NCBI GenBank assembly: GCA_030528385.1
Contig: JAUMYZ010000007.1
Span: 1-64,000, forward strand
DNA: 64,000 nucleotides
Direction of reading: 5' to 3'
Source of the DNA: Moraxella sp.
Lineage (GTDB): Bacteria; Pseudomonadota; Gammaproteobacteria; Pseudomonadales; Moraxellaceae
A program made the position numbers and the translations under genes. Positions 1,055 to 28,245 of this stretch are shown here, piece after piece. The notes under the pieces are model-generated. The model was not told the DNA's origin. It saw only the letters and a list, made by a program, of their open reading frames with translations, and did no database searches. Each line of letters opens with the position of its first letter. The stretch's first letter is position 1.

Positions 1055-4000
1055 TTAAAAGTGAAAGCCTGCACCGATGGATGCACCTGCGTTGCCTTTG
1101 GTGTCAGCAGAGCCGCTCATTTTTAGTACCCAGCGACCATTGTCAGACAATTTGGACAAGCCAACCGCCACAGCACCTTCGCCATTGTACGTTGCCAAGC
1201 CACCAGTCAGCATGGATTTGCCAGGAATGTAGGCTTGTGGCAAAGAAGCCATCGCCATCGCTGACGACACACCCGCATTGGCTTTGTCTTCCACATCACC
1301 AATGCGTTGATTGAGCTGGTTGCCCATATTGACCACATGATTTGACACATTGTTAATCACTTGGTGGGTGTCATACAGCTGACTGCCATTGATGGCATCT
1401 GTTGATGAAGGCGATACCACACCTGCTGCCACGTTTTGGATTTGGCGAGTTTGACCACCTTCACTGCCAACACTGACCACACCAACAGGAGCGGTATCAC
1501 CCACCACGCCCGCCACATTAGCATCGTTTGCACCAGCATAGGTATAATTGCCGCCTTGGGCTATGGTATGCACGCCTGTTGATGATGATTTATCACCCAA
1601 GAACACAGAATTATCAACAGTTTGGCTAACATCATTACCCAACACAAAAGTGCTGTTTGTGGCAACAGTATTATTATTGCCCACACTGTAACTGTTTGAA
1701 CCATTGATGATGCTTGGGTCGCCGATTGCACCTGAGTTCTCACCTCTGACAATATTGCCTGTACCGATAGCAATGGCATTTTTTGCCAACGCTTGTGAAC
1801 CTTTACCAAAGGCAAGAGCATTTTCACCTTCTGCATTGGCACGGAAGCCCACTGCTGTTGCATACGCACCAGAAGCGTTAGAATCCTCAGTATTATTATC
1901 TTTGGCACCTGCTGGCTTGTTGGTACCATCGTTGGTGTGGAAGTACTTAATACCACCTTCGTTCATGTTTTTGATGGCAGAGATGATGGTATTGTCAGTC
2001 GTACCTTCTTGTCCAGAAACGTCATAGGTTTTAAGTGCCAACTTGCCATTGGCAGTCAGCTCACCATCATCATCAACATAATTACCACCCAGCACGTTGT
2101 TGGTGATATTGGTAACGTTGCTCTGTACGGTCGCCAAATCACCAACCGTTGCGGCGTTGCTGCGCTCAGCGGCATTAGGGTCGGTTTTGATGTCATCAAG
2201 CGTTTTGCCATTTAGTCCACTGGCCAGACCTGTGATTTGTTTGTCTCCCATGTTAATGCCAGTATTATTGACAGTTACGCCACCAATCTCTGCAGAATTC
2301 ACCAAAATGGTGTCATTTAAAGCAACTTGCACGCCAGCAGCAGTTGCAGTTGTGGTGATGTTTTTGTCGCCTGTGATGGCAACGGCATCGCCAAGTTTTT
2401 TCACGCCAGTTGTGCCGCTGTCGCCTGTAAAGGTCAAACCCTTATTGTCCACAGCATTCTTGGCAGCAATGCCTTGGGCGATGTTGTTTTTGGTTGCTTG
2501 GTTAAGCGCCACTTCATAATTTGGTGCTTCTGTCGTGCCTTTGTTGATGACAGCAACGCCATCGCCTTGAGTAACTTTGGTTTTTATCTCGGCTTTGGCT
2601 TCAACGGCTTTTAGCTGGCTGACATTGACCGCGTCGGTATCGGCTACGCCTTTGGCTACACCGATGATTTTGTTGCCGCCATTGTTCAACCCATTGGCGG
2701 TTACACTCACAACGTTATTTGGATTGGTCGCTGTTGGCGATTTGATGGTCAAGCCAGTACCATTGACAACACTGTTACCCATCGCCACGCTGCCATTTTG
2801 TCCAAGATTAACCGCTTCTGCCAATTGAACGTTTAATTCGCCAGTGGTTGGATTTGCCACCACGCCAATATTGTTCTTGGTCAGATTGCCAGTTGCGCCG
2901 CCCTTGACCGTGATGTTTTCACCAAGTTTGCGCGCAACTTTTTTACCATTATCATCAATAAAGGTCAAGGGTTTTGCCACTTCGCTGTTCAGTGCCTGCA
3001 CCGCATCACCGACATTGTTATAGACATTGCCAGTAACTGTATAGTTTGGTTGCCAGATTGTGCCATCGGCATTGATGGTTGCGCCACCACCCAAAGCAGC
3101 CACTGTACCTTTTAGCTGGCTAACATTGACCGCGTCAGTGTCTTTAACGCCTGCTTTGATATTGCCCACAGTGGTTGGCAGTGTGGTTTGTGGGTCTACT
3201 GGGTTAAGGGCAGCGATGGTGATGTCCTTGCCCGTATAGGTGGTGCCATCTTTGGCTTTTTTGAAAGCAACTTCATTTTTGCCATTAACCACTTTGACTT
3301 CACGAATAAGCTGTTCGCCCGCTTCATTGATATAAGAAAATGGGGAATTGGCTTGAACCAAAGATTGGTTTTGTACAGTAACGTTGCCCAGTGCTTTGCT
3401 TAATTGGTCAACATTAACCGCGTCTGTGGCATTCTCACCATTGGCAACGCCTGTGATTTTTTGGTTGCCTGCATTGATACCAGTCTTGGCAATGCTTGGG
3501 CTGTTGGCAACCGTCGCACCAGCACTGTCCACAAATCTTAGTCCAGCATTGTCAATCTTGGTGCCACCTGTGGTTAGGCTGTCAAACTTGGCGTTTTTTG
3601 CCAGCTCAATGTTGATGTTGCCATCGGCGGTGGTGCGGGTGATGACGTTTTCGCCCGATGTCGCGGTAGCGTTATCAGTAATACCGCCTTTAATGCCTAC
3701 CGTTTCGCCCAAGCTGCGCTTGATGGCAGCATTGGCAGTTTTGCTTTGGTCATTGGCAGCAAAACTTAGCCCCTTATTGGCAACATCGGCAACGGCATTG
3801 TTCAAATCACCAGCATTGACAGCCTTATAAGCGTTTTCAGGCTTGGTGTAATCGCCTGCACTGGCGACGTTGTTCAGTGCTGTGCCACCAGCCATGGTAA
3901 ATTTATCATCATTACCTTTCAGGGCTGGCGTGGCTGGGGTGCCTGCCAAGGTAATACTGTCTTTGTTTGGCTGACCTGCTTGATCTTTGTCGTATTTGAC

Positions 4001-7000
4001 GGCAAAATCATCAACCACCTTTAATTGCTCTTCGCTGGCGGCACGCCCTGCTTTGGCAAAGTCAGCGGCAGACAAGTCTTTGTTGGTCAAACCTGTAATA
4101 CTGCCCTTTTCACCATCAATTTTCACAGGATTGTTGGCAGTGCCAGTCGCATTGGTAGGAGCACCCACAGTAACCACATCAGCCAAACCCACTTTGACAT
4201 CGCCATTGTCGTTGCTGACTTTGACGTTGTCATCGCCTTTGATGTTGAGTTCGTTGCTGTCTTTGGTCAGCTCTTTAACGTCTGCACCATTGGCTTTGAC
4301 TTTGATGGTTTGTAAGGCGCTGTTGGCTTTGGTCAGGCTGTCTTTACTGTCTTGGTTAAGCGCCACTTCATAATTTGGTGCTTCTGCCGTGCCTTTGTTG
4401 ATGACAGCAACGCCATCGCCTTGAGTAACTTTGGTTTTTATCTCGGCTTTGGCTTCAACGGCTTTTAGCTGGCTGACATTGACCGCGTCAGTGTCTTTAA
4501 CGCCTGCTTTGATATTGCCTACAGTGGTTGGCAGTGTGGTTTGTGGGGCTTTGGGATTTAAGGCAACAATACTGATGTCATCGCCTGTATACACCGAACC
4601 ATCTTTCGCCTTTTCAAAAGTAACAACCGATTTTCCATTTACAACCGCAACTTTGCGAATGAGCTGTTCGCCCGCTTCATTGACATAAGAAAATGGAGAA
4701 TTGGCTTGAACCAAAGATTGGTTTTGTACAGTAACGTTGCCCAGTGCTTTGCTTAATTGGTCAACATTAACCGCGTCTGTGGCATTCTCACCATTGGCAA
4801 CGCCTGTGATTTTTTGGTTGCCTGCATCCAACCCTTTGGCAGAGACTTTGCCTGCAAATACTGGTGCATCAGCAATTTGCACATCAATTTTACCGTCTTT
4901 GGCAAGCGTACGAATATTGGCATTGGACGACGTGATTGATGTGTCATTTAAGCCGCCTGATACCGTAACTTTGTCACCTAATTGACTGTTAAATTCGCCT
5001 GTATTGCCTGCAAAACTCAAGCCTTTGGCGATGTTGGCTGTATTGCTTGCAACTTCTTGTTTGACCTTAAATAATTGACCGCCATTTACAGCATCTTTAC
5101 TACCAGCAACAACTTCACCATCGGCAACATTGGTGATTTTGTTACCGCCATTGTTTAAGCCAGTCGCAGTTAGCTTCACGTCAGTTGTACCACCAGTGGC
5201 AGGGGCTTTGATGACAATGCCATCACTATTGACGGTGGTATTACCCGTTGCAACACTGTCTACAGCGATGTCTTTAGCAAGTTTGATGTCCAAAGCGCCA
5301 TCTTTGGCAACCACACCAATGTTGTTATCGCTTAACTTGCTTGTGTCTGCAACGCCGCCTTTAATGGTCGTTGTCTGACCCAGTTTACGGTCAAATGAAC
5401 CCGTATCAGCTGCAAAAGTTAATGGATTATTAACCGCTGTATTTAAAGCATTCAGTGCATCACCTACATTCTGTGCTTTAATAACAGCACCATCAGCTGG
5501 GTTGGTAATATTATAAGTTGGTGCATTGATTGTGCCATCAGCATTTATGCTTGCACCGCCACCCAAAGCGGTTGCCACCCCTTTTAGCTGGCTGACATTG
5601 ACCGCGTCGGTATCGGCTGTACCTTTGGCAACACCTGTGATTTTGTTGCCACCTGCATTGATACCAGTCTTGGCAATGCTTGGGCTGTTGGCAACCGTTG
5701 CACCCGCACCATCCACAAAGCTCAACCCAGCACTATCCAGTTTTGTGCCCGCTGCGACCACACTGTCAAACTTCACATCTTTTTTGGTGGTGATGGTGAT
5801 GTCATTTGCCTTACGAGTAACAACAATGTTATCACCATCCAAAAATTGAACGGTATCGCTGGCTTTCACTGCGGTGGCGGTATCGCCATTGGCTTGCAAT
5901 TTAAAGGTTTGGTTTTGCAATCCTGTGATGGCATTGGCATTGTTGGTTACATTTTGGTTGGTGGCAAACAGCTGGCTGCCATTCACCGCATCTTTTGAAG
6001 TAGCAGTGATTGCACCATCAGCAACATTGGCAACTTTCTTGTTATTGGCATTTAAACCAGTGCCAGAAATGTAGGTGTTGCCACCAACTTTAACGCCATC
6101 ATTACCAAGGATAACTTGGTTAGTTCCTTCACCTGCAGTAATAGTTTTAGAAGTCAATGAGTTTAAACCTGCAACATCTTGGTTTAAAGCCACTTTAACT
6201 TTGCCACCATCATTGCTAACGGTGATGTTATCACCTTGGGTGATGTCTAAGGTGTTGTTGTCTTTACCCAACGTTGTTACATCTGTACCATTGGCTTTTA
6301 CTTGAATGCTTTGCAATGCACTGTCTGCTTTGGCTAGGCTGTCTTTGGCGTCAGCGGTCAAATCAACAGCGATTTTATTGCCATCAACTTGTGTTATCAC
6401 TTTGCCATCATCAGCACCAACAATATCAAAGCGAGCTTTGTCTTTATCTACGGTAATGCCTTGGGCGGTGGCATTTTTATCTGTTCCAACGGTAAAGGCA
6501 GCCAATTTGCCATCGGTGGTTGTTTTTAAGTCTTTTAATTGACTGACATTGACCGCGTCGGTATCGGCTGTACCTTTGGCAACATTGGTGATTTTGTTGC
6601 CGCCATTATTTAGACCATTGGCTGTCAGTTTGACATCACTTGTACCACTGGTGGCGGGAGCTTTGATGGTAATACCTGCATTGTTGACTGTGGTGTCGCC
6701 TGACTTAACACCATCATTGTTTAACACCACTTGGTTGTCGCCTTCACCCACAGTAACACTGTCAAACTTGACGTCTTTTTTGGTGGCGATGGTAATTTTG
6801 CCATCAGCTTGGGTTAGTTTGATGTTGTTGTCTGCTTCAACAGTAACGCTATCGCCTGCCTTAATCAGCTCGTTGGTTGCATTGGCACCCAATTCGCCAT
6901 TGTTGGTTTTGGCGGTGGTCAAAGTAAAGCCTGCATTGTTGATGGCATTGGCGATATCGCCAGCGGTTGCCAGTTTGGATTTGTCAGTATCTGCCAAATC

Positions 7001-10000
7001 AACCACTTTATTGTTCGTTACAGTCAAAGGTGTGGTCGCTGTTTTGTCTTTTAACTGCTTGACAGTTACCGCGTCTTTGTCGTCCACGCCGTCAGCAAGA
7101 CCCGTGATACGACCTGCTGGACGGTTATTGGTTGGGTTGGCGGTGTCTGTTACTGCTGGGGCATTGATGACAATATCGCCAAATTTTGGGCTGTCTGCCA
7201 TGGTAATTTCTACTGCGCCATCTTTGACCGCAGTCTTGATGTTACCACCAGAGAATGTGCCATCAACAAAGGTGCGTGGGTCGCCAGCGTTCGCAGCAGC
7301 GTTACCACCAACAATCTTCCAAGTCTCGCCCAGTTTGCTGTTGCCTGTGCCATCATTGCCAGCAAAATTTAGCCCTTTGAGCTTTGGCACACCATTGTTG
7401 TCCAGTTTAACATCGCCATTTTGCTCGGTTTCATAAATGCCCGCATCGGCAAGCTGTTTGACATTGACCGCGTCAGTATTGGCAACGCCTGCCGCCACAT
7501 TTGCCAGCTTCACAGGCTGATTTGTCAAGCCAGTTGGCCCGTGCATAGAAGCAATGACGTTGGGTGGGTCTACCAAGTCGCCACCACCGTTTGGCTGGGT
7601 ACGGAAACTGCCATCGGCTTGTTTGTACAACTTATTGCCATTTTCATCGGTATAAACCACAGGGGTTAGGACATTGACCTTAAAGGTGGTTTTATCGCCG
7701 TCGGTTTCGCTGCTAACGCTTGTGCCATCACCATCGGCAAAGTTTACCGTGTCATAGGGCTTGACAAAGTCGGTGTCGTTGCCATTGGTTTGCACGTTCC
7801 AACCAGCATTTAACACATCACCCACAGTGGCGGCGTTGGTTTTTTTGCCGTCAAGGTCTGCTGGTTTGCTTTGTGCCTTGGTGGCGTTGCTTGGGTTGCC
7901 TTGTGTGGCACTGTTATAGGTGGTTGCTGGTAGGTTGCTTGCCACATTGCTGATGACATTACCACCGTTGTTTAAACCATCACTGGTCAAACTGACAGGT
8001 TGTTTGCCGCTCTTAGTAATGGTCAAGCCATCGTTATTGACCTTGCTATCACCTGCGGTCAAACTGCCATCAGCACCCAAATCAACATCTTTGGCAAGTT
8101 TGATGGTTAAACTTTTATCATTGACATTACCCACCACGCCAATGTTATTTTCAGACAATTTGGTTTGGTCGGCACCGCCCTTGACTTTGAGTTCTTCGTT
8201 AAGTTTACGCTCAACCTTTTCGCCAGCATTATCACCAACAAATTTAAGTGGGTTAGCAACTTCTTTATCTAATTTCTCTATCGCAGCACCAACGGTGTTA
8301 AAGGTGTTACCTGCCACCTTATAGCTGGGCTGAGTAATATTGCCACTACCATCAACAGCTGCACTACCACCTAGGGCTTTAACAACGTCTTTTAGCTGGC
8401 TAACATTGACAGCGTCTTCATCATCAGTACCTGCCGAAACATTACCAACTTTTACCGAAACAGAAGTTTGGCTCTTTTTCGGGTTAAGTGCAGTAATGGT
8501 AATATCATCATCTGATGTTGGTGTGTATTCAGTTCCATCACTAACCTTATAATACTTAACCGAATCATCTGAATCAATATCACGTTTTAACAAATCACCA
8601 TTTGAATTGATATAAGAAAATGGCGAATTAGACTCTACTTTGGTCAAACTTTGCACCTTGACATCATTTATGGCTTTTTCTAATTGTGCCACATTTACTG
8701 CATCGTTGGCACTGTCGCCTTGGGCGACATTGGTGATTTTTTGACCACTGGCATCAAAACCATGCCCCTTAACCACGCCAGTAAACACAGGTGCATCAGC
8801 AATCTGAATGTCAATCTTGCCATTATCGGCAACCGTACGGATATTGCTATTGGAAGCTGACTTGCCATCAGCCAGACCGCCAGAGATGGTAACCTTGTCG
8901 CCCAATTCACGCTTAAATTCACCTGTATTACCCGCAAAATTTAAACCTTTGGCAATGTTGGCGGTATTGGTATCAACTTTGGTGTTGGTGGTAAATAACT
9001 GACCGCCATTCACCGCGTTTGTACTGCCTTGGGCAATATTGCCATCAGCCACGCCAAGGATTTTATGACCGCCGTTATTTAGTCCCGTGCTGGTTAGGCT
9101 GACAGGATTATTACCACCTGTTGGCGTGATGGTGAGACCTGTGCCATTTAGCAGGGTTTGGTTGCCTGCATTGTCTTTGGTGGTAACTGTGCTAAATTCC
9201 ACATCGTCTTTGGTGGCAATGGTTACTTTGGCACCTGTCTGGGTTACTTTGATGTTTTTGTCGGCTTCAATGGTCAGCGTTTCGCCGTTTTGGACTTTGT
9301 CATCGTCATCTTTAGTTGTGCCAACCGTTTTGGCACCCAACTCGCCATTGGCAGTATTTGTGGTATTGACTATAAAGCCTGCTGCTTTTAACTGGGCGAC
9401 GTTTACCGCGTCGGTGTCTTGTGTGCCCGCAGCCACAGAAGTGATTTGGCGGGTTACGCCACCTGCAACATTACCCACAGATACGGCAGCTTTGGTAGAT
9501 TTCCATGTGTGATTATTTTTATCAGTTTGCGCATTCAATGGGTCAGCACCGATTTGGTTAATTCCAGTATCTGCGACACTGTCTGAACCTAGTGCCACAG
9601 AGTCGGTTTGCTTGGCAACTGCACTCACACCAACAGCCAACGATTTCCAGCCCTTAGCATCACTGTTTAAACCAATGGCGGTGGCTGATGATTTGGTGTT
9701 TGCCTTGGCACCATAACCAATGGCGATGGTACTGGCATAGTTGGCTTTGGCATTGGTACCAATGGCAATCGCATCAGTTGAGCGTTCTTGCACACCATTA
9801 GCACCAGCAGCAAGCGTATCCACATTGGCACCTGTGCCAATGGCGATGGCGTTATAAGGTTTGGCTTTATCATTGGTGGGAACTCCTTGATTGTTGGTTG
9901 TAACAACATCCAAACCTTTTGCAGACGCTCCTATGCCAATCGCCAACGCACCACTGGCATTGGTGTACGCACTATCACCAATAGCGATATTTGCTGTTTC

Positions 10001-12631
10001 TGCACCTTCTGCTTTGGCACCATAACCAACAGCCACGCCTTTTGCAGAATCAACAATGGCTTTTGAGCCAACGGCAACTGACTTATCGCCCTTAGCCTGA
10101 GCTTCTGAGCCGACAGCAATCGCCACGTGTTTTTCAGATTTTGCCAAAGAACCAATCGCAATGCCACCAGCGGCAGCACTGGCAACATTTGCCTGAGCAC
10201 CAACAGCAATGCCCTGTCCAGCATTAGCTTGAGAAGCGTCGCCCAACGCCACCGTGCCACGACCGATACCTTGGGCGTTACGACCGATAGAGATGGCGGC
10301 TTTACCTGTGGCTTTGGTGGTGTTTGAACCGATGGCAATCATGCCTTCACGGTCGCCAACACCATCACCTGCCAACAATTCTGTTTTAACACCGCGACCA
10401 ATGGCAATAGAATCTTCAACAGGTGCTTGTGCCAAACGTCCAATCGCCACCGCGTCATTACCAGAAGCATGTGCCCATTCGCCCATAGAGATGGTGTTGC
10501 GTGCAGTAGAAAACACTTCACCGTCAATCATTCTGGTGGCTTCGTTATTGGGTGTGTTTAATTTACTGGCACGTCCAGCATGGCGACCGATGGCAATATT
10601 GGAATTGCCCGAGCTATAACCACCTGCGTCTTTACCAATGGCCACATTGTCATGACCTAAGGCATTGACCCCTGCACGCGAAGAAATGGCGGTGTTGGTG
10701 TTGCCTGTAATAATGGCATTATCGGTCGCTCCTTGCCCAGCAGAAAACGCTTGCATGGCGGTTTTAACGGTAGCATTTGTTTTATCTACACCACCTGTTT
10801 TATTACCAATAGACACACCTTCGCCATAAGTGCTGTTATAGCCACCACTGCCTGCTTGATAACCGATATTAACACCATAATTATTATTGATGGTGCCCTT
10901 GCCTGCTTCATTGCCAATACTGGTTACATTGACCAAACCATTGGCACTGGTTTTGCCCGCTTTGGTGCGACCAGTGATGTCATTGGCAGTGTTTGTGCCT
11001 TTGTTTGCCAAGTCCACGCCTGCCGAGCCAGATTGGCGACCGATGGAGATGGTGTTTAAATCAGCCGCTTTGGCAGTATCGCCAATAGCAACAGCACTGT
11101 TGGCAGATGACACACTGTGTGCACCCACCGCAACACTGCGATGACTTTGAGCATCTGCGGACACACCAACGGCGGTGGCACCTTCGCCTTTTGCTTTGGT
11201 GTAGACACCCACCGCCGTTGAGCTATCGCCTGACGCTGCATTGGCATAGTTGCCTGCTTTATACTCTTCGGTGGTCATAGTGCCCTTACCAGCACCATCA
11301 CCGATTGCCACCGCAGATGTTCCCACAGCATGAGCGTCATTACCAGCAGCAAAAGAATTTTTCCCTTTGGCTTCAGATGCTTGACCAATGGCGGTTGCAT
11401 TCACTCCCGATGTGTTGCTTTCTGAACCAACAGCCACCGCACCATTGGCTGTTGCTTTGGCTTCTGTGCCCATGGCAATGGCATGATTAGACGTTGCGTT
11501 GGTACGCACACCAATGGCAACAGAATTGGCACCTGTGGTTTTATAGGCGGCTGGGATTTCTGGATTTTGGTCTGTGCCTGTACCAACCACCTTTGGCTGA
11601 TAATTGGCTTGCTGACCAATAGCAATGGCACCATTGGCACCAGCATTGGCAGTATTGCCCATGGCAACGGCGTTGTCGCCCAAGGCACGGCTACCATTAC
11701 CGACAGCGGCTGAAGTAGTGCCAAAGGCTTTGGCTTGCTGACCCACAGCAACACCAGCCGCTTTGGTTGCCAAAGCTCTGGTACCGATGGCAACACTGTT
11801 GGCAGTTTCAATATATTTGACGTCTTTTTCACCATTAGACAAGCCCGTGTTACCATCAATAATGGCAACTTTTCTGGTTTTGGCGTTGATTTGTGTCTCT
11901 GTGGAGCCAGCACTTTCTGCCGATTGAATGGCTTCTTCTGTGTTGGCATAGGTGCCGATGACGACGTTATGAGTGCCTTTTAGATTTGCAGCAGCACTGG
12001 TGCCCATGACAGTGTTGTTATTCACGCCCAGTCCGTTTTTCAAAGCACCATCACCAAGAGCAATGTTACGACCTTCTCCACTCGCGGGAGATGCCGCATT
12101 CCAGCCCGCCTGACGACCAACAGAAACGTCCCACTGCCCATTAGCCTGTGCATTTTGTCCTACTGCGATGGCTTGCTCGGCAGCGGCTTTGGCACGGTCG
12201 CCCACAGCAACAGCAGAAGTGCCCGCACTGCTGGCTGATATACCAACAGCGACGCTGCTTTCGCCTGTATTGGTCGCACCTTTGCCAAGCACAACAGATT
12301 TGGCGGGCTTGCCAGCAACAGTATCCACAGAAGTGGTGGTCTCATCACCACAAATGACGGTTTGGCTTTCATCATCATAAACGCAGTAGTTGCTATTGCC
12401 ACTTGAGCTGTTAGTGCTTGTTATTGGTGCTGCCATCACCTGCCCGCCCAACACCAACAAAGACGCTGACGCCAGTGCTGTATAAACAAAACGCATTCCC
12501 TTTAGGCTCTTGGGTGTGTCGCCTGCCACACTACTGCGACTGCTAGATTTGCCTTGCGCAGTGGCATATTCACTCACCGCCGTCCAAGTTTGTGTGGATT
12601 TGTTCCAAATAACACGATATATTTTATTCAT
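1055..12631 (-). CDS. ataA: Giant trimeric autotransporter adhesin (AtaA/YadA-like)
   Basis: A 3858-residue type Vc secreted adhesin. It starts with an extended signal peptide region (MNKIYRVIWNKSTQTWTAVS), and the hydrophobic signal ends near VMAA (about residue 68). Residues about 120-1035 are YadA-like head repeats (motifs such as SVAVG..A.A.G). A long stalk with some 16 neck motifs of the DAVNVSQLK type follows. A second short head lies near 3585-3690, and the C-terminal YadA membrane anchor ends in Phe. The start at 12631 was chosen for the extended signal motif and a GGAG Shine-Dalgarno sequence; longer in-frame starts upstream lack both. AtaA of Acinetobacter Tol 5 has a similar size and the same head-stalk-head-stalk-anchor plan. 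The expected role is adhesion to host tissue, abiotic surfaces or other cells. Long near-identical internal repeats suggest size variation by recombination. No long homopolymer was seen in the promoter region. Confidence 0.95.
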   Translation of the reverse strand: MNKIYRVIWNKSTQTWTAVSEYATAQGKSSSRSSVAGDTPKSLKGMRFVYTALASASLLVLGGQVMAAPITSTNSSSGNSNYCVYDDESQTVICGDETTTSVDTVAGKPAKSVVLGKGATNTGESSVAVGISASSAGTSAVAVGDRAKAAAEQAIAVGQNAQANGQWDVSVGRQAGWNAASPASGEGRNIALGDGALKNGLGVNNNTVMGTSAAANLKGTHNVVIGTYANTEEAIQSAESAGSTETQINAKTRKVAIIDGNTGLSNGEKDVKYIETANSVAIGTRALATKAAGVAVGQQAKAFGTTSAAVGNGSRALGDNAVAMGNTANAGANGAIAIGQQANYQPKVVGTGTDQNPEIPAAYKTTGANSVAIGVRTNATSNHAIAMGTEAKATANGAVAVGSESNTSGVNATAIGQASEAKGKNSFAAGNDAHAVGTSAVAIGDGAGKGTMTTEEYKAGNYANAASGDSSTAVGVYTKAKGEGATAVGVSADAQSHRSVAVGAHSVSSANSAVAIGDTAKAADLNTISIGRQSGSAGVDLANKGTNTANDITGRTKAGKTSANGLVNVTSIGNEAGKGTINNNYGVNIGYQAGSGGYNSTYGEGVSIGNKTGGVDKTNATVKTAMQAFSAGQGATDNAIITGNTNTAISSRAGVNALGHDNVAIGKDAGGYSSGNSNIAIGRHAGRASKLNTPNNEATRMIDGEVFSTARNTISMGEWAHASGNDAVAIGRLAQAPVEDSIAIGRGVKTELLAGDGVGDREGMIAIGSNTTKATGKAAISIGRNAQGIGRGTVALGDASQANAGQGIAVGAQANVASAAAGGIAIGSLAKSEKHVAIAVGSEAQAKGDKSVAVGSKAIVDSAKGVAVGYGAKAEGAETANIAIGDSAYTNASGALAIGIGASAKGLDVVTTNNQGVPTNDKAKPYNAIAIGTGANVDTLAAGANGVQERSTDAIAIGTNAKANYASTIAIGYGAKANTKSSATAIGLNSDAKGWKSLAVGVSAVAKQTDSVALGSDSVADTGINQIGADPLNAQTDKNNHTWKSTKAAVSVGNVAGGVTRQITSVAAGTQDTDAVNVAQLKAAGFIVNTTNTANGELGAKTVGTTKDDDDKVQNGETLTIEADKNIKVTQTGAKVTIATKDDVEFSTVTTKDNAGNQTLLNGTGLTITPTGGNNPVSLTSTGLNNGGHKILGVADGNIAQGSTNAVNGGQLFTTNTKVDTNTANIAKGLNFAGNTGEFKRELGDKVTISGGLADGKSASNSNIRTVADNGKIDIQIADAPVFTGVVKGHGFDASGQKITNVAQGDSANDAVNVAQLEKAINDVKVQSLTKVESNSPFSYINSNGDLLKRDIDSDDSVKYYKVSDGTEYTPTSDDDITITALNPKKSQTSVSVKVGNVSAGTDDEDAVNVSQLKDVVKALGGSAAVDGSGNITQPSYKVAGNTFNTVGAAIEKLDKEVANPLKFVGDNAGEKVERKLNEELKVKGGADQTKLSENNIGVVGNVNDKSLTIKLAKDVDLGADGSLTAGDSKVNNDGLTITKSGKQPVSLTSDGLNNGGNVISNVASNLPATTYNSATQGNPSNATKAQSKPADLDGKKTNAATVGDVLNAGWNVQTNGNDTDFVKPYDTVNFADGDGTSVSSETDGDKTTFKVNVLTPVVYTDENGNKLYKQADGSFRTQPNGGGDLVDPPNVIASMHGPTGLTNQPVKLANVAAGVANTDAVNVKQLADAGIYETEQNGDVKLDNNGVPKLKGLNFAGNDGTGNSKLGETWKIVGGNAAANAGDPRTFVDGTFSGGNIKTAVKDGAVEITMADSPKFGDIVINAPAVTDTANPTNNRPAGRITGLADGVDDKDAVTVKQLKDKTATTPLTVTNNKVVDLADTDKSKLATAGDIANAINNAGFTLTTAKTNNGELGANATNELIKAGDSVTVEADNNIKLTQADGKITIATKKDVKFDSVTVGEGDNQVVLNNDGVKSGDTTVNNAGITIKAPATSGTSDVKLTANGLNNGGNKITNVAKGTADTDAVNVSQLKDLKTTTDGKLAAFTVGTDKNATAQGITVDKDKARFDIVGADDGKVITQVDGNKIAVDLTADAKDSLAKADSALQSIQVKANGTDVTTLGKDNNTLDITQGDNITVSNDGGKVKVALNQDVAGLNSLTSKTITAGEGTNQVILGNDGVKVGGNTYISGTGLNANNKKVANVADGAITATSKDAVNGSQLFATNQNVTNNANAITGLQNQTFKLQANGDTATAVKASDTVQFLDGDNIVVTRKANDITITTKKDVKFDSVVAAGTKLDSAGLSFVDGAGATVANSPSIAKTGINAGGNKITGVAKGTADTDAVNVSQLKGVATALGGGASINADGTINAPTYNITNPADGAVIKAQNVGDALNALNTAVNNPLTFAADTGSFDRKLGQTTTIKGGVADTSKLSDNNIGVVAKDGALDIKLAKDIAVDSVATGNTTVNSDGIVIKAPATGGTTDVKLTATGLNNGGNKITNVADGEVVAGSKDAVNGGQLFKVKQEVASNTANIAKGLSFAGNTGEFNSQLGDKVTVSGGLNDTSITSSNANIRTLAKDGKIDVQIADAPVFAGKVSAKGLDAGNQKITGVANGENATDAVNVDQLSKALGNVTVQNQSLVQANSPFSYVNEAGEQLIRKVAVVNGKSVVTFEKAKDGSVYTGDDISIVALNPKAPQTTLPTTVGNIKAGVKDTDAVNVSQLKAVEAKAEIKTKVTQGDGVAVINKGTAEAPNYEVALNQDSKDSLTKANSALQTIKVKANGADVKELTKDSNELNIKGDDNVKVSNDNGDVKVGLADVVTVGAPTNATGTANNPVKIDGEKGSITGLTNKDLSAADFAKAGRAASEEQLKVVDDFAVKYDKDQAGQPNKDSITLAGTPATPALKGNDDKFTMAGGTALNNVASAGDYTKPENAYKAVNAGDLNNAVADVANKGLSFAANDQSKTANAAIKRSLGETVGIKGGITDNATATSGENVITRTTADGNINIELAKNAKFDSLTTGGTKIDNAGLRFVDSAGATVANSPSIAKTGINAGNQKITGVANGENATDAVNVDQLSKALGNVTVQNQSLVQANSPFSYINEAGEQLIREVKVVNGKNEVAFKKAKDGTTYTGKDITIAALNPVDPQTTLPTTVGNIKAGVKDTDAVNVSQLKGTVAALGGGATINADGTIWQPNYTVTGNVYNNVGDAVQALNSEVAKPLTFIDDNGKKVARKLGENITVKGGATGNLTKNNIGVVANPTTGELNVQLAEAVNLGQNGSVAMGNSVVNGTGLTIKSPTATNPNNVVSVTANGLNNGGNKIIGVAKGVADTDAVNVSQLKAVEAKAEIKTKVTQGDGVAVINKGTTEAPNYEVALNQATKNNIAQGIAAKNAVDNKGLTFTGDSGTTGVKKLGDAVAITGDKNITTTATAAGVQVALNDTILVNSAEIGGVTVNNTGINMGDKQITGLASGLNGKTLDDIKTDPNAAERSNAATVGDLATVQSNVTNITNNVLGGNYVDDDGELTANGKLALKTYDVSGQEGTTDNTIISAIKNMNEGGIKYFHTNDGTNKPAGAKDNNTEDSNASGAYATAVGFRANAEGENALAFGKGSQALAKNAIAIGTGNIVRGENSGAIGDPSIINGSNSYSVGNNNTVATNSTFVLGNDVSQTVDNSVFLGDKSSSTGVHTIAQGGNYTYAGANDANVAGVVGDTAPVGVVSVGSEGGQTRQIQNVAAGVVSPSSTDAINGSQLYDTHQVINNVSNHVVNMGNQLNQRIGDVEDKANAGVSSAMAMASLPQAYIPGKSMLTGGLATYNGEGAVAVGLSKLSDNGRWVLKMSGSADTKGNAGASIGAGFHF
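2497..2635. repeat. Direct repeat in adhesin gene, 139 bp, copy 1 of 2
   Basis: Positions 2497-2635 match 4351-4489 over 139 bp, with one mismatch that I can see (2533 versus 4387). Both copies encode a stalk segment that ends in a neck motif. They are in the same orientation, 1854 bp apart, and lie within one reading frame. Confidence 0.85.
3345..3474. repeat. Direct repeat in adhesin gene, 130 bp, copy 1 of 2
   Basis: Positions 3345-3474 appear identical to 4698-4827 over 130 bp. The repeat encodes the segment with VQNQSLVQANSPFSY and the following neck. The offset is 1353 bp, a multiple of three, so recombination between copies would keep the frame. Confidence 0.85.
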
Positions 12632-13006
12632 AAAAACTCCGGTGGATATTAACGCAACAATGAGTTGAATGTAGTTGCCATATTTCATTGGTTTGCATAA
12701 AAACTCACCACCATTGGTGCAATATTCTCGCCAAGCAAAAAAAGTATTGGCAATGCTTGACACCATTTATGTAATTAAATCATTGTATTAGTAATTTTAT
12801 GTAATTTGGCAATATTTATCTGATTTTATATACCGTTGGTGTTGATACTTTGAAATTTTTTAATTAAAAAATCAAAAAAAACAAACGTTAATTTTGGACA
12901 TTTTTTGACGATTGGAAGTTTTGGACGCGGTCATCAAAGATTTTTAATATTTGTATTTAAACAAAATTTGTTTTAGACTTAGCAAAATTTAGCCAATGAT
13001 TGTCTT
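12632..13006. other. Divergent intergenic region, adhesin and NUDIX genes
   Basis: This 375 bp AT-rich gap separates the divergent adhesin and NUDIX starts. It holds a GGAG Shine-Dalgarno sequence for the adhesin, A/T runs of 7 to 8 (for example near 12739-12745 and 12873-12880), and a small dyad CACCATTGGTG at 12709-12719. I could not assign a convincing -35/-10 pair for either gene. In-frame codons continue upstream of the adhesin start to 12766 but look untranslated. Confidence 0.5.
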
Positions 13007-21661: not shown

Positions 21662-23109
21662 ATGAGTAAAGCCCATTTTTATCACAGCCATCAATCTTGG
21701 CAAAGCCTATTATATGCTGGCGGTATTTTTGCACTTATTTATAATCTGACCAATGCCTATGCCCAGATTATAGATGGTACCTATGGGGTACCCCATATTG
21801 CCAACACCTTTGATAAGCACACTCCCTTTATCGCTCCGATGATAGTGCCTTATGCTCTGTCAATGCCATTATTTGTGATAAGTTTTTTTATTATTGATAG
21901 AAGACAATTATCTTGTCTTACTCATCGGCTACTTTTACTGACTATAATCTCTGGGCTTATTTTTTATTATTTTCCTTTAAAGTTTTCATTGGTCATGACT
22001 GATTTTTATTATTGGGGGGGGTGGATTGGTCTTGGGCGTATCAGATGTTATTTGCCATAGATAAACCTTATAATCAACTGCCGTCATTGCACGTTGGTTT
22101 TGCAATGCTGATTGCTCTTTCTTTATATAGCACACTAAAATCTTGGTGTGGTTTATATGCTTGGCTACTTGTTATGATTTGTTTTTTGATTGCTATCTCT
22201 ACCATTTTTACTTATCAGCACCACAGCTATGATTTATTAGCTGGTTTAATTTTTGCATTGTTGGTTTATTGTATTGAGCATTATTTATCATCAGCTTATA
22301 CGGCGATATTAAAGGCAAATATTATTAAATACATCAGTCTTGCTGTTGTATGGCTGATTGTTATAAAAACACTGCCTGTGATTATATCACAATCGCCCAT
22401 CACAGGCATTGCCAGTTTAATCATTGACTTTATTGCTTATCACGGTTTGATATGTTTTTTATTGGTGGCGTTTTGTTATCATCGTTATAAAAAACAGTTG
22501 CCTGATAAATTATTAAGCCAATTATTTCATAAACAGCAAGGCAGATTTACGCCACTTGGTCAATTTATCTTTATGTATTTTTATGCGATGTATTATCTGC
22601 TTTGGCAACTTGCCAAATACAGTCAATTTTTACAAACAACCCATAAGCCTATTAAAATAGACAAGCATACTGATATTTTAGCCATTGGCAGATTGCCAAA
22701 ATACCATTATGATGATGAGTTTTTTAATCAATATGAAGCAATTATTTGGCTAGATATCAGCACAGAATTGTCGTGTCATATGACAGGCAGTAAACTGGCT
22801 GATAAAAGCCATTATATCTATCTGCCCATGCTGGATTTAAGCGCTTATCAAGATTGCCATTTAACGCAACTCATACAACAATGCCAATTTATTCAAAAAA
22901 AATTATCACCAAAAAGAACACTGATTGTCTGCCAATGTGCGATGGGGCATTCTCGCAGTGTGGTGATGATGGCATATCTGCTGGCATATATGGGCAAATA
23001 CTCAGCCAATAATATATATTCGCTGATTGATGGTCATTATCCCAAACATCGTGCCAAAAAATACATCAAGCACAAACATTTAACCACAATAAGGAATGCC
23101 AATGCCTGA
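21662..23109 (+). CDS. ynbD: PAP2/dual-specificity phosphatase (YnbD-like), frame broken at G8
   Basis: The reading frame from 21662 runs in frame to 22060, while the rest of the protein lies in another frame from 22012 to 23109. The switch point is a run of eight G (22014-22021). With nine or six G the two parts join into about 480 residues. The N-terminal part has several membrane helices. The PAP2_3-type active site follows (YNQLPSLHVGFA, then HHSYDLLAG). The C-terminus carries a dual-specificity phosphatase domain with the general acid Asp (LPMLDLSA) and the CX5R loop (CAMGHSRS). This fusion matches the E. coli YnbD plan. It should remove phosphate from a lipid or lipid head group in the inner membrane. 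In this sequence it is OFF, unless the run was miscalled. Base composition is AT-rich compared with the right arm of the module. Confidence 0.85.
22014..22021 (+). repeat. Poly-G tract (G8), likely phase-variation switch
   Basis: Eight consecutive G sit exactly where the phosphatase reading frame changes. In the present state the upstream frame reads Trp-Gly-Gly-Trp-Ile and stops at 22060. One extra G, or two fewer, gives Trp-Gly-(Gly)-Val-Asp-Trp-Ser and continues to 23109. It is the longest G or C run I noticed in the window. Slipped-strand mispairing at such tracts is known for Moraxella surface genes. Confidence 0.85.
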
Positions 23110-23872
23110 TGACATTATTTTTATGGCAAGTCTGTTTATCACAGTGGTGTTATTAAGACTGCTGCTTGTTTTTGCCAAGTCTTCTGCTTTGGTGGTAATT
23201 AAGCCCATTGTGTCGTCTTGGATATTTTTATTGGCGGTATTGTTTGGCAGTTATTTGCTTGGGTTTTGGGCGATGGTGGTGTTGTCTGTTGTCATGCTGA
23301 TAAAAGGCATTCATGAAGTTAGCGAGCTTTGGCACAGCGATACCAACAATCCACAAAAAATCACTCAGCTGTTTTTGGTTGATTTGATTTTATTGGCGTG
23401 GCTGATTATTTATTGTATTGGCTTTGTGCATTTATATTATCAACTTAATCAACACGGACAAACATCTGTTTTATTATGGTTGATATTTTGTGTGCAAATT
23501 GGTGATGTTTGCCAATATATTATGGGAAAATCTTTGGGGCAACGTTTTTTTAAAATCAAACTTGCCCCCAATATCAGCCCCAATAAAACCATTGAAGGGG
23601 TGTTATTTGGCATATCACTGATGGCGATTTTTGGCGTTGTGCTCGGCAGTTATTTAACACTATTTAATTATGGTCAAAGTTTTTTATTGGCGGTGCTGTT
23701 GGGTATGTTGGGTGTGGCGGGCGATTTGTTGCAGTCTTTGGTTAAAAGACGCCACCGCATTAAAGACATGGGCACTTGGCTAAAAGGGCATGGCGGCTTA
23801 TTAGACCGCATTGACAGTTTGTTATTTGCCCTGCCTATATTTTGGGGAATTTATCGTTTATTTTTAGGATAA
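23102..23872 (+). CDS. ynbB: CDP-diacylglycerol synthase-like (CdsA family, YnbB-like)
   Basis: A 256-residue integral membrane protein of the phosphatidate cytidylyltransferase family. It would make a CDP-lipid from CTP and phosphatidic acid. The C-terminal family signature is intact: SLVKRRHRIKDMG, then KGHGGLLDRID. About seven hydrophobic segments are seen. The ATG at 23102 was chosen because AAGGA lies 6 bp upstream; an in-frame ATG at 23096 is too close to it. The start lies inside the end of the phosphatase gene, so translation is coupled. The stop overlaps by 9 bp the convergent SDR gene. It is probably a paralogue of a housekeeping cdsA elsewhere. E. coli YnbB has been linked to MPIase glycolipid synthesis. 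Confidence 0.88.
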   Translation: MPDDIIFMASLFITVVLLRLLLVFAKSSALVVIKPIVSSWIFLLAVLFGSYLLGFWAMVVLSVVMLIKGIHEVSELWHSDTNNPQKITQLFLVDLILLAWLIIYCIGFVHLYYQLNQHGQTSVLLWLIFCVQIGDVCQYIMGKSLGQRFFKIKLAPNISPNKTIEGVLFGISLMAIFGVVLGSYLTLFNYGQSFLLAVLLGMLGVAGDLLQSLVKRRHRIKDMGTWLKGHGGLLDRIDSLLFALPIFWGIYRLFLG

Positions 23873-24652
23873 TTTTTTATCTTGCTGGCGGTATTGTAAT
23901 TTCATCATTTGGCTTAATAATGGCTTTGGCAAACTGCCCAAAGCCTTAACCACATATTTCATCGGTTTTGGGAAAATATGCACTTTAATATTATGACCAA
24001 TGGCATGATTGATTTCACGCACCGCTTGTTTTTCTGAAGACAAAAAGGGCTTATTCTGGGCACTGCCAGCATTTAATTCACGCAACTTTTGCGTATCTAT
24101 ATAGCCACAAGCAATACAATTTACGCCAATGCCAAAGGGCTCTAATGCCAGCTGATACGCCTGACAAATCTCTATCATCGCACGTTTACATCTGGCATAT
24201 AGGCTCATTTGCTCAAAATTTAATAAGCCCGCCACAGAAGCAATGGCAATAAGACGGGTGTTTTGATGGTATTTTTTTAATTGCTCACTTGCCCATTCAA
24301 CACATTGACAAAAGGCTTGTAAATTCACCGCCAATATTTGCTCGCTTTGGGCTTTGGATAATTTTAATTTGCGTTCATTATAATAGATACCTGCACTATA
24401 AATAAAATGCGTCATCGGCATATTTGCCAATTCATCAAATAAGCGTTGTCTTTGGCGGGCATTGGTAATATCGCATTGCTTAATGGTGAGATTATCATTG
24501 TTTTGATAATGCTGACACAGGGCATGTATTTTATCGGCATTGCTACCAACGATGGTTACTTGCCATGATTTGTCCAAATAATCCTTGGCAAGTGCCAGCC
24601 CAATACCGCTAGTACCGCCGATAATGACACAATGTTTATGATGAGTTGTCAT
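23864..24652 (-). CDS. Short-chain dehydrogenase/reductase
   Basis: A 262-residue classical SDR using NAD(P)H. The nucleotide-binding motif is GGTSGIGLALA (TGxxxGIG type), followed by an NNDNLTIKQCDITN segment, YSAG in place of NNAG, and the catalytic Ser (IASVAG) with Tyr-x-x-x-Lys as YARCK. The substrate is unknown. Its place as last gene of the right arm of the lipid module suggests reduction of a lipid intermediate or head group. The start overlaps the patatin stop by 17 bp. The base composition is AT-rich like the left arm and unlike the three genes upstream of it. Confidence 0.85.
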   Translation of the reverse strand: MTTHHKHCVIIGGTSGIGLALAKDYLDKSWQVTIVGSNADKIHALCQHYQNNDNLTIKQCDITNARQRQRLFDELANMPMTHFIYSAGIYYNERKLKLSKAQSEQILAVNLQAFCQCVEWASEQLKKYHQNTRLIAIASVAGLLNFEQMSLYARCKRAMIEICQAYQLALEPFGIGVNCIACGYIDTQKLRELNAGSAQNKPFLSSEKQAVREINHAIGHNIKVHIFPKPMKYVVKALGSLPKPLLSQMMKLQYRQQDKKLS

Positions 24653-25742
24653 GGTTTAATAAATACGCCTTGGTTGTTTGATAGCCATAGTGATATTGCT
24701 CGTGGGCGATGTGTTGAAACTTAGCAAAGGTTGGATACACGCCATCAATACAGCCATATCGCCAGTTGTAGCGTTTGCCAATCAGGGCAGGCACATGTCG
24801 GCGACTGTCCGCCAGTGGCAACCAGTGCACCGTCGCAGCGTGCGTTTTTTGTTTGACCTTGCTAAGCCTAACATTGGGGTCAAAACCAAAGCATGAGCCA
24901 ATGGCGGGCACAGCCAGCAACCTGTCATAGGGCAATTTATCGTCAATAAACACTTCATCGGCAAGTAGGCTTGCCAGCTCCACAGGGGTCAAATCCAGCA
25001 CCCCACCAAACAGCGTCTGAGTGTGATGACCGATGGGCGACAAATAATACATATCGCTGATGGACGCCCGCACCGCTGCCGCCAAGGGCAAGTCCTGCAC
25101 CGCCAGCGTGGGAGCAATTCGCTGGGGCTGATAATCGTGCAGGGCACAAGGTGTGCCGTCTAGCCATGCCCGCACGCCAGTACCAACCGCAACAGACGGA
25201 CGCAGCAACAACTGCCAGCGATAGCCTGTATCCACCGCTTGCAGGCGACTTAAAACAATCAAACTGGCGATGGACTGCCCCGATGGGCTGGGCAAATCGG
25301 CTAACTCTTGAGCCAATTTATCGCTTTGCCACAGTGGATGGCTGTTTTCATCTTTGATGGCAAATAGGGCTTGGCTGTATAGACCATCAAGCGTTTTTTG
25401 GCTTAGGGCTTGTTTTGATTTTGAGATTAAACCCACAAAACGCCGTACGGCGGGCAACACAAACTTCCCTTGATGGGCGGGCACAACGCCATAAAAGCGA
25501 CAAAACATCTGATAAGCGGTGGGGCTTTGTACCAATGCCAGTGCCGTCTTGGGCTCGGGGGCAAGCTCCAAAAAGGCGACCGCCAATGCCCCACCACAGC
25601 TTGCCAAGATAATGTCAGGGCGTTTATCATGCTCGCACAAAGCCTGATACACGCCCAAATAATAACCAAAACGCAAACCGCCACCTGCAAAAATCAGTGC
25701 ACGCCGATAAGGTTTGGCAGGTGCTTTATCCTGTTTGGTCAT
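24636..25742 (-). CDS. Patatin-like phospholipase
   Basis: A 368-residue patatin-family hydrolase, expected to be a lipid acyl hydrolase. Visible are the oxyanion GGG motif (ALIFAGGGLRFGYYLGVY), the nucleophile elbow as ASCGGA (Ser, but with Ala and Cys instead of the classical GxSxG spacing residues), and an Asp in LFGGVLDLTPVE taken as the dyad partner (usual form DGG). The atypical elbow makes activity less certain. No signal peptide was seen, so it probably acts on the cytoplasmic face. The start ATG overlaps the upstream stop as ATGA, which implies coupled translation. Confidence 0.82.
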   Translation of the reverse strand: MTKQDKAPAKPYRRALIFAGGGLRFGYYLGVYQALCEHDKRPDIILASCGGALAVAFLELAPEPKTALALVQSPTAYQMFCRFYGVVPAHQGKFVLPAVRRFVGLISKSKQALSQKTLDGLYSQALFAIKDENSHPLWQSDKLAQELADLPSPSGQSIASLIVLSRLQAVDTGYRWQLLLRPSVAVGTGVRAWLDGTPCALHDYQPQRIAPTLAVQDLPLAAAVRASISDMYYLSPIGHHTQTLFGGVLDLTPVELASLLADEVFIDDKLPYDRLLAVPAIGSCFGFDPNVRLSKVKQKTHAATVHWLPLADSRRHVPALIGKRYNWRYGCIDGVYPTFAKFQHIAHEQYHYGYQTTKAYLLNHDNSS

Positions 25743-27490
25743 ACTTTTTTGGCAAGCGACACACTAAAAATGCCAAACTTATCAATCTTCATGGCAATCT
25801 TTTTAAAGCCCGCCTGCTCGGCAAGCTGGTCCATCTCCGCCTGACTGCGACAACGCATAACCCAGTCTTTGCCCTGATGGTTGGAGAGTGTTTTGCCGAT
25901 AAATTCTTGCTCAGGGTGCCACGGCTGATTGGTATAAAGTAAATAACCACCATCATCAAGCGAGCGGTGAATGCCCGCCAGTGCCGTTTTTACCAAAGCA
26001 TTGTCAGAAAACAGCTCAAACAGCCCTGACGCTATCGCCAAATCCGCCATTTGTTCATCATAAGTAGCCAGCTCAAAGGCGTCCCTTTGCTCAGCACAGG
26101 CACGCTCTGACAAACCCAAAGTTTGAATTTTTTGACTCAACACTTGCACATTGTGCGTGTCATAATCACGCAAACACATCTGTAACTTGGGGTGCATCTG
26201 TGCCAGCTCAAAGGCATAAAAGCCATTACCACTGGCGATGTCCAAGAGACGTGGCGTGTCGCTTGCTATGGACGACAAGGCGGTGTTAGCAAGTTCAAGT
26301 AAGTGCGTTTTGCGAATGCGAATGCCCTGCCAGCCGATGTTATTGAGATAAAAATTGTCCACCCATTTGCCCAAGCCGTATTTGCCACTGGGGCGGTTTT
26401 GATAGACTTTATCCAGCGAACTGCCCGAATCAAAGCCGTGTTTGACCCCCGTTGCCACGCCATCGCTTAGCCAGCCTAGCTTGTCAATCGCCAAACGCGT
26501 CAGGGCAAACTGCGGATTAAACCCCTTTGCCATCAAGGCTTCCACCCGCTCTTGGCTATGGCGTTTGGCGTGTTCGCCACTGACATCGGCGTCGGTTAAA
26601 TCTACGGGTGTCAAGGGCTTGGCAAACACTTCATCGGCAAAGGCGATACAATCTTGATAGACGTCAGCCTTGTTGATTTCGTGGAAAATGGCATGAAAAC
26701 TGTCCGCATAATACCGCCACCGCTTCATAGGTGAACGCAGACGTTCATAAAAGCTGCGAATTGCCCCTTTGTCCACGACAAAATCCTTGCCAGCACACAA
26801 GACCATGGTGGGCACGGTAATCGCCCCTGCGTCGTCAAGCAGCCGCTCACCCGTCAAGAGCGAATCAATCAGCAAATCGCGTGAAATACTCGTGGAGATG
26901 AGCTCATCATCGCCATAGGCTTGTTGGGCGTGTTTGTCGTGGGTGAGCACCTTTGCCTTGACATAGCTGGACACGCGATTCACCATACCTGCTTTTTTGG
27001 CAAGTTGTAAAGCAGGCAAGGCAAAAGGCACATACAGACGTATGGCAAGGACGGGTGTACCCAGTATCATGCCACGCACTTTGGGGGCGTAGTCGTGCAC
27101 CCAAGCGATTGCCATCAATGCCCCCAGACTGCTGGCACAAAGCATGATTTGGCTGTCATCAACCGTCATCAGTTGGCGAATCTGTGCCACAAACTTATCC
27201 AAATCCGCCACCAAACAAGAAAAACTCTCGGCGTGGTCGCGTTCACCTTCGGACAGCCCGTTGCCACGTGCGTCCCATGCAAAGACCTGATAGCCCGCCT
27301 GCACAAAGGCGACCGCCATATCGGTGAGCCGTGCCGAATGTTCATGCCCACGGTGCAAGAGCACCATCACTTTTTTATCATTGGGAACAAGTGTATCAAT
27401 GGGCTGACCCAGCCAATAACGATAAAAAATAAAAGTGCCATCACTGGCATAAAAGCCACTTTCTTTGGAGATGATTTCATCGTGTGTCAT
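25739..27490 (-). CDS. ynbC: Alpha/beta-hydrolase and SAM methyltransferase fusion (YnbC-like)
   Basis: A 583-residue two-domain protein. Residues about 1-300 are an alpha/beta hydrolase of the monoglyceride-lipase type (LLHRGHEHSAR, FAWDARGNGLSEGERDH, nucleophile Ser in CASSLGA, and DSFHAIFHE near the catalytic His). Residues about 350-583 are a class I SAM methyltransferase (motif I LLDIASGNGFYAFEL, then LRDYD). The same fusion is found in E. coli YnbC. It may cleave an acyl or head group and methylate the product. The start overlaps the previous stop as ATGA. The gene is visibly GC-richer than the left arm. Substrates are not known. Confidence 0.88.
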   Translation of the reverse strand: MTHDEIISKESGFYASDGTFIFYRYWLGQPIDTLVPNDKKVMVLLHRGHEHSARLTDMAVAFVQAGYQVFAWDARGNGLSEGERDHAESFSCLVADLDKFVAQIRQLMTVDDSQIMLCASSLGALMAIAWVHDYAPKVRGMILGTPVLAIRLYVPFALPALQLAKKAGMVNRVSSYVKAKVLTHDKHAQQAYGDDELISTSISRDLLIDSLLTGERLLDDAGAITVPTMVLCAGKDFVVDKGAIRSFYERLRSPMKRWRYYADSFHAIFHEINKADVYQDCIAFADEVFAKPLTPVDLTDADVSGEHAKRHSQERVEALMAKGFNPQFALTRLAIDKLGWLSDGVATGVKHGFDSGSSLDKVYQNRPSGKYGLGKWVDNFYLNNIGWQGIRIRKTHLLELANTALSSIASDTPRLLDIASGNGFYAFELAQMHPKLQMCLRDYDTHNVQVLSQKIQTLGLSERACAEQRDAFELATYDEQMADLAIASGLFELFSDNALVKTALAGIHRSLDDGGYLLYTNQPWHPEQEFIGKTLSNHQGKDWVMRCRSQAEMDQLAEQAGFKKIAMKIDKFGIFSVSLAKKV

Positions 27491-28149
27491 CTTTGACTCC
27501 TGTGATTGTGTTCCTGTGATTGTGTCATTGTGATGGTATCTTTGCGATTACGTCCCAAGACAAGCGTGCGGTTATAGATGGTTTTCAGCAGTAGCAATTG
27601 GGCTATGATAAGTAGCTGATGGCTTCTTGACTGACTAAGTGCAAGCCCTGTGCCCAAATACACGCCCAGCACCCCCAGTGCCAAAGCACGGTCGCTTTTG
27701 CCCAAAGGCCCATGATTGGCTCGCTCGCCTGTGCTGATACTTGTCCAGATTGCCACCAGCTCACTGATGGTGCTAAGTGCCATGACACGATATAGGGCGT
27801 GGCGGTTGCTATGATTTAGGTGGGGTGATAAACTTGACAATATCAAAGCGTCAGAGAGCAAATCGCCCGCTTCGTTGAGCACCGCCCCAAGGTGGCTTGC
27901 TTGCCCGTGCTCTTTTGCCATCATGCCATCAATGGCGTTCATCGCCATGCGGATAAACAGCCCCGCTGGCAGTGCATACCACCACATTGGGCTGTGCTGG
28001 GTACGCTTGGCGACCATATAGGCAACACCGCCACTTAGCACCACCGCCGACACCGTAATATGATTGGCACGCACACCACGGGCAACCAGCGTCTGACTGA
28101 TGGGGCGTAATAGGTTTTGAAATTGGCGTTTAAATTGATAGATGGACAT
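27487..28149 (-). CDS. ynbA: CDP-alcohol phosphatidyltransferase (YnbA-like)
   Basis: A 220-residue membrane protein of the CDP-alcohol phosphatidyltransferase family, which transfers a phosphatidyl group from a CDP-lipid to an alcohol. The family motif DG-x2-AR-x8-G-x3-D-x3-D appears as DGMMAK, GAVLNEAGDLLSDA: Lys replaces Arg and Asn replaces the first Asp, while the later two Asp are kept. The N-terminus (MSIYQFKRQFQNLLRP) resembles YnbA as I recall it. For that reason the ATG at 28149 was preferred to an in-frame start at 28203. It is the first gene of the four-gene right arm. The alcohol acceptor is unknown; glycerol-P or inositol-P would need the phosphatase of the left arm. Confidence 0.85.
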   Translation of the reverse strand: MSIYQFKRQFQNLLRPISQTLVARGVRANHITVSAVVLSGGVAYMVAKRTQHSPMWWYALPAGLFIRMAMNAIDGMMAKEHGQASHLGAVLNEAGDLLSDALILSSLSPHLNHSNRHALYRVMALSTISELVAIWTSISTGERANHGPLGKSDRALALGVLGVYLGTGLALSQSRSHQLLIIAQLLLLKTIYNRTLVLGRNRKDTITMTQSQEHNHRSQR

Positions 28150-28245
28150 CACAAAGCACTCAAGACTTTTGTCTATTATCAAAGAATTTTGCCAAGCATT
28201 CAAACACTATCGCTTACCATCGGACAAATGGCAAACATATGTTTT

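Follow-up and report, generated by a model that had tools for sequence, protein, structure and literature searches.

Contingency tracts are known for Moraxella adhesins, as the sequence-only reading of this DNA had pointed out. In M. catarrhalis, poly-G tracts of length 6-11 vary in mid/hag and uspA1, the mid/hag tract lying inside the ORF, with lengths of 6-10 (PMC7302503), and the survey of that species set the minimum for mononucleotide tracts at more than 7 units and omitted those seen only at 7-8 (PMC7302503). In H. pylori, a homopolymeric ON/OFF tract in pldA, found in all clinical isolates sequenced, yields a full or truncated protein (PMC3490997), a precedent in view of which phase-variable membrane composition would not be new. 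A close described relative of the gene studied here is E. coli ynbD, whose product could not replace undecaprenyl-pyrophosphate or PGP phosphatases and has no assigned function or substrate (PMC7413402). Our literature search on ynbA-D returned nothing on function.

The locus reported here resembles each of these systems in part. Like E. coli YnbD, its ynbD-like product has a two-domain plan—PAP2 followed by a CX5R phosphatase—and each gene of ynbABCD has a homologue here. Unlike in E. coli, ynbD and ynbB are convergent with ynbC/ynbA, a patatin gene and a short-chain dehydrogenase (SDR) gene have been added, and ynbD is frameshifted. As in mid/hag, a poly-G run lies inside an ORF. However, mid/hag and uspA1 encode adhesins and their tracts vary in length within and among strains, whereas the present tract is known at a single length from a single genome and lies in a lipid phosphatase gene. 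As in pldA, the homopolymer lies within a gene for a membrane-lipid enzyme, but pldA encodes an outer-membrane phospholipase A with a tract in all sequenced clinical isolates, while the present tract occurs in one lineage.

Results

In the window—the whole 64,000-nucleotide stretch of Moraxella sp. DNA that was analysed—direct reading places a run of eight G (G8) at exactly 22014-22021 on the plus strand, where the reading frame changes. The tract, longer than any other G run in the window, arises from adjacent Trp-Gly-Val codons. ORF1 (21662..22060, plus strand, 132 aa) is the N-terminal part of a ynbD-like gene and comprises about 117 residues ahead of the tract, with the first transmembrane helices, then out-of-frame residues up to the stop; by itself it matched no Pfam domain. 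ORF2 (22012..23109, plus strand, 365 aa), which starts at the tract in the -1 frame relative to ORF1, is the remainder of the gene. Pfam assigns it PAP2_3/PAP2 and dual-specificity phosphatase (DSPc) domains, with PSLH and TYQHH...D as the PAP2 motifs and CX5R in the phosphatase domain. The DSPc score of 29.4 bits is below the Pfam cut-off of 33.5, and the fold matches tyrosine phosphatases. The window also holds two very long ORFs, both on the minus strand, at 1055-12766 (3903 aa) and 45056-52072 (2338 aa).

The claim that eight G separate two frames of one two-domain phosphatase, with helices before the tract and both active sites after it, was borne out by an intact orthologue. At the corresponding locus, Moraxella sp. 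VT-16-12, a strain mentioned in a dog-oral-microbiome paper, carries this gene as an unbroken 480-aa frame with six G (G6) at the tract site. ORF1 matches residues 1-123 of the VT-16-12 protein (75% aa identity) and ORF2 the rest of the protein after the tract (79% aa identity), and this agreement on either side confirms that the two ORFs are frames of one gene and that the break maps to the G tract. In DNA alignment, the flanks common to both species read ATT-[G]n-TGGATTGG, where n = 6 in VT-16-12 and n = 8 here, a difference between species with one genome for each. A change of tract length does therefore restore the frame, as had been proposed, since the two ORFs are joined in the orthologue with G6. 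When the structure of the VT-16-12 protein was predicted (mean pLDDT 83), the tract site fell at about residues 118-120, in a loop between helix 80-103 and helix 123-132, and preceded the PAP2 motifs PSLH (140-143) and TYQH...D (183-190). This genome and VT-16-12 have three residues more at the site than Psychrobacter and M. lacunata, suggesting that the loop tolerates length change. When sought in the homologues of M. lacunata, M. caprae and Psychrobacter, the G tract was absent, and the loop there is three residues shorter.

Family membership, which the sequence-only reading had suggested checking by alignment to YnbD homologues, is well supported. Against E. coli YnbD, the broken gene gave an hhalign probability of 100 (E 4.7e-61, 400 columns), with full-length YnbD aligned to the family profile, and ORF1 is 30% identical to the YnbD N terminus. 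The family plan of PAP2_3 with PSxH and H...D motifs, followed by the CX5R phosphatase domain, is present in full, and the CX5R motif (C428..R434 in the VT-16-12 orthologue) is invariant in 16 homologues. Direct comparison with E. coli K-12 found homologues of all four ynbABCD genes around the broken gene. A ynbB-like CdsA/CTP_transf_1 gene (23096..23872, plus strand; 44% over 117 aa to YnbB) shares its first 14 nt with the end of ORF2. It is followed on the minus strand by the short-chain dehydrogenase (23864..24652), a patatin-like lipase (24636..25742), a ynbC-like alpha/beta hydrolase plus methyltransferase (25739..27490; 40% over 583 aa to YnbC) and a ynbA-like CDP-alcohol phosphatidyltransferase (27487..28203; 41% to YnbA). 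The broken gene is a ynbD homologue in a ynbABCD-type cluster.

The cluster is patchily distributed in the genus. The ynbD-like gene is present in 4/22 Moraxella genomes (this one, VT-16-12, M. lacunata and M. caprae), and the ynbA-like gene occurs in the same four, which suggests that the module is gained and lost as a whole. Two of the four Moraxella copies of the ynbD-like gene carry a break, each at its own position. In M. caprae DSM 19149, the loss of a single T (T5 to T4), some 0.4 kb beyond the tract position, splits the orthologue, whereas the M. lacunata gene, 95% identical to the split copy, is intact. The M. caprae break could itself be an assembly error. Protein scans of the genome and viral contigs with the window protein, together with a plasmid DNA search, found no second copy from the same species. 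ORF2 is the sole PAP2-family match in the genome, which also encodes BacA and PgpA. With these two retained for essential lipid-phosphate steps, loss of the ynbD-like gene should be tolerable.

Comparison with VT-16-12 shows purifying selection on both halves of the gene, similar to that on its neighbours. dN/dS is 0.256 before the run and 0.212 after it, and 0.183 for cdsA, 0.172 for the patatin gene, 0.15 for the SDR gene, 0.114 for the hydrolase-methyltransferase gene and 0.09 for metE, with dS of about 0.54-0.70 across the compared genes. From metE to the ynbC-like gene, the G8 site is the only frame break relative to VT-16-12, and the ynbD-like gene has no second stop or frameshift in this comparison. 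The further mutations expected of a permanently broken gene, which the sequence-only reading had named as a refuting outcome, were thus not found. The gene was maintained for most of the time since the two species separated, and selection on both halves together with the lack of a second break implies that the frame was interrupted recently or reversibly, or that the interruption is an error. A long-standing pseudogene is rejected on the same grounds.

To place the tract in its genomic context, runs of G or C were counted in the whole assembly (2.05 Mb, a 20-contig draft) and compared with a first-order chance model using dinucleotide frequencies from the window. There are 33 G7, 9 G8, 2 G9, 1 G11 and 1 G12 runs. 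Runs of at least 7 number 46 against 83.5 expected, those of at least 8 number 13 against 18.3 (1 against 0.57 in the window), those of at least 9 number 4 against 4.0, and those of at least 11 number 2 against 0.19. Only the G11 and G12 runs exceed chance, and G8 is at chance frequency. G8 is in frame within pnp, gmd, an MFS gene and ligA—names read off the translated sequence—so that G8 alone is no marker of a contingency gene. Among in-gene runs, 3/7 of those of at least 8 G/C break an ORF (in the ynbD-like gene, a WG-repeat gene and an unclassified contig-4 gene, all non-housekeeping), against about 1/26 of G7 runs (Fisher p = 0.02, post hoc). The higher break rate at longer runs is suggestive, but slippage and sequencing error both rise with length.

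Several other tracts were seen in the course of this count. A run of C12 on the coding strand (C5:50012-50023; L127:3513-3524) adjoins the ATG of a gene for a Capsule_synth (KpsS/KpsC-like) protein, which is flanked by two capsule-export genes; the length of the run far exceeds chance, and it is a much stronger candidate for phase variation than the G8 tract. A G11 run (C20:175971-175981; L136:3472-3482), also above chance length, is intergenic; a DUF4407 gene of 632 aa begins about 60 bases downstream of it. A G9 run on contig 4 (C4:28263-28271; L125:2958-4704) splits a gene that has no Pfam or PADLOC match into 105-aa and 504-aa frames; homologues of this gene, about 34% identical, occur in three further Moraxella genomes. 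Another G8 run (C15:1567-1574; L133:977-2244) splits the gene of a WG-repeat protein, a type numerous in the genus and with 19 matches in this genome. A G7 run (C20:169039; L172:1877-2387) sits where two overlapping frames meet, both belonging to a small glycine-rich (bacteriocin-like) protein that looks secreted.

Discussion

The best reading of this locus, which we hold tentatively and at slightly under an even chance, is that slippage has recently shifted the frame of an accessory ynbD homologue. The gene product would be a polytopic PAP2 lipid phosphatase fused to a cytosolic dual-specificity-type phosphatase and encoded in a ynbABCD-like phospholipid-module cluster. An indel at the short G run, probably real and arisen by slippage, would have produced the frameshift. 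As assembled, translation of the first part would stop at 22060, after the N-terminal helices, and the PAP2 catalytic motifs and phosphatase domain would then be absent from the membrane protein. A remnant might still be made if translation restarted, by coupling, at the in-frame ATG at 22045. Such an indel would be no selected switch but a case of ordinary loss or polymorphism, as open to reversion as other indels in short homopolymers. Three things make loss plausible: the gene is confined to a minority of Moraxella genomes, the M. caprae copy is broken elsewhere, and BacA and PgpA are retained. Moreover, two differently placed breaks fit a dispensable gene, and a dedicated switch at the G run does not explain the one in M. 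caprae. Two observations count against ordinary loss: runs of at least 8 break ORFs more often than G7 runs do, with all three broken genes non-housekeeping as in a phase-variable repertoire, and the absence of a second mutation fits reversible switching equally well.

In the proposal of a phosphatase switched on and off by the tract, the broken two-domain gene is upheld, and the switching itself is conjectural. A contingency locus, in which slipped-strand mispairing at the G run toggles the ynbD-like phosphatase and the assembly caught the OFF phase, is a serious but on balance unlikely account. That the break coincides exactly with the window's longest G run, that two lengths, one in frame and one out of frame, occur in sister species and that both halves are conserved and otherwise undamaged are what such a locus would show. 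The poly-G variation in M. catarrhalis mid/hag and uspA1 (PMC7302503) and the other long G/C tracts that break or abut accessory genes here (the WG-repeat gene, C4:28263 and C12 at the kpsS-like start) add to this. However, the run is of chance length and equal to runs kept in frame in housekeeping genes, it is not conserved in the more distant homologues, the product is no surface antigen and the comparison of lengths rests on one genome per species. While eight units satisfy the M. catarrhalis survey at its minimum length, the same survey drops tracts seen only at 7-8 (PMC7302503). Somewhat more doubtful still is the fuller proposition that the run switches the only PAP2-family enzyme of the genome and with it an optional phospholipid module, through polarity on the overlapping ynbB-like gene, so that cells would differ randomly in an unusual envelope lipid.

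A sequencing or assembly error in the homopolymer, the true gene being in frame, had been named as the main alternative, and we consider it improbable, if less so than recoding. A homopolymer is the classic error site, the genome is a draft in 20 contigs, and dN/dS like that of a working gene without extra mutations is what an error would leave. However, the frames stay open at 4 G8 and 25 G7 tracts in long or housekeeping genes of the assembly and at 25 other A/T runs of at least 7 inside ORFs of the window, including T7 and A8 in the ynbD-like gene itself. Homopolymer accuracy thus looks good in general, which disfavours a general homopolymer error, and the gene carries the sole frame break in the stretch aligned to VT-16-12. 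Finally, programmed -1 ribosomal frameshifting or transcriptional slippage on the run, giving some full-length protein from the G8 gene, is very improbable: the -1 frame of ORF2 is the direction expected from slippage on GGG-GGG, but VT-16-12 has an uninterrupted gene and other homologues lack the run, which argues against a conserved signal.

The significance of the locus depends on whether the tract varies. If it does not, the broken ynbD-like gene would be one of many recent accessory-gene losses and a caution that a G8 run in a broken ORF does not alone make a switch. If it truly varies, membrane-lipid metabolism would join adhesins and DNA methylases among the phase-variable traits of Moraxella, and the switching might hint at the purpose of the orphan ynbABCD module.
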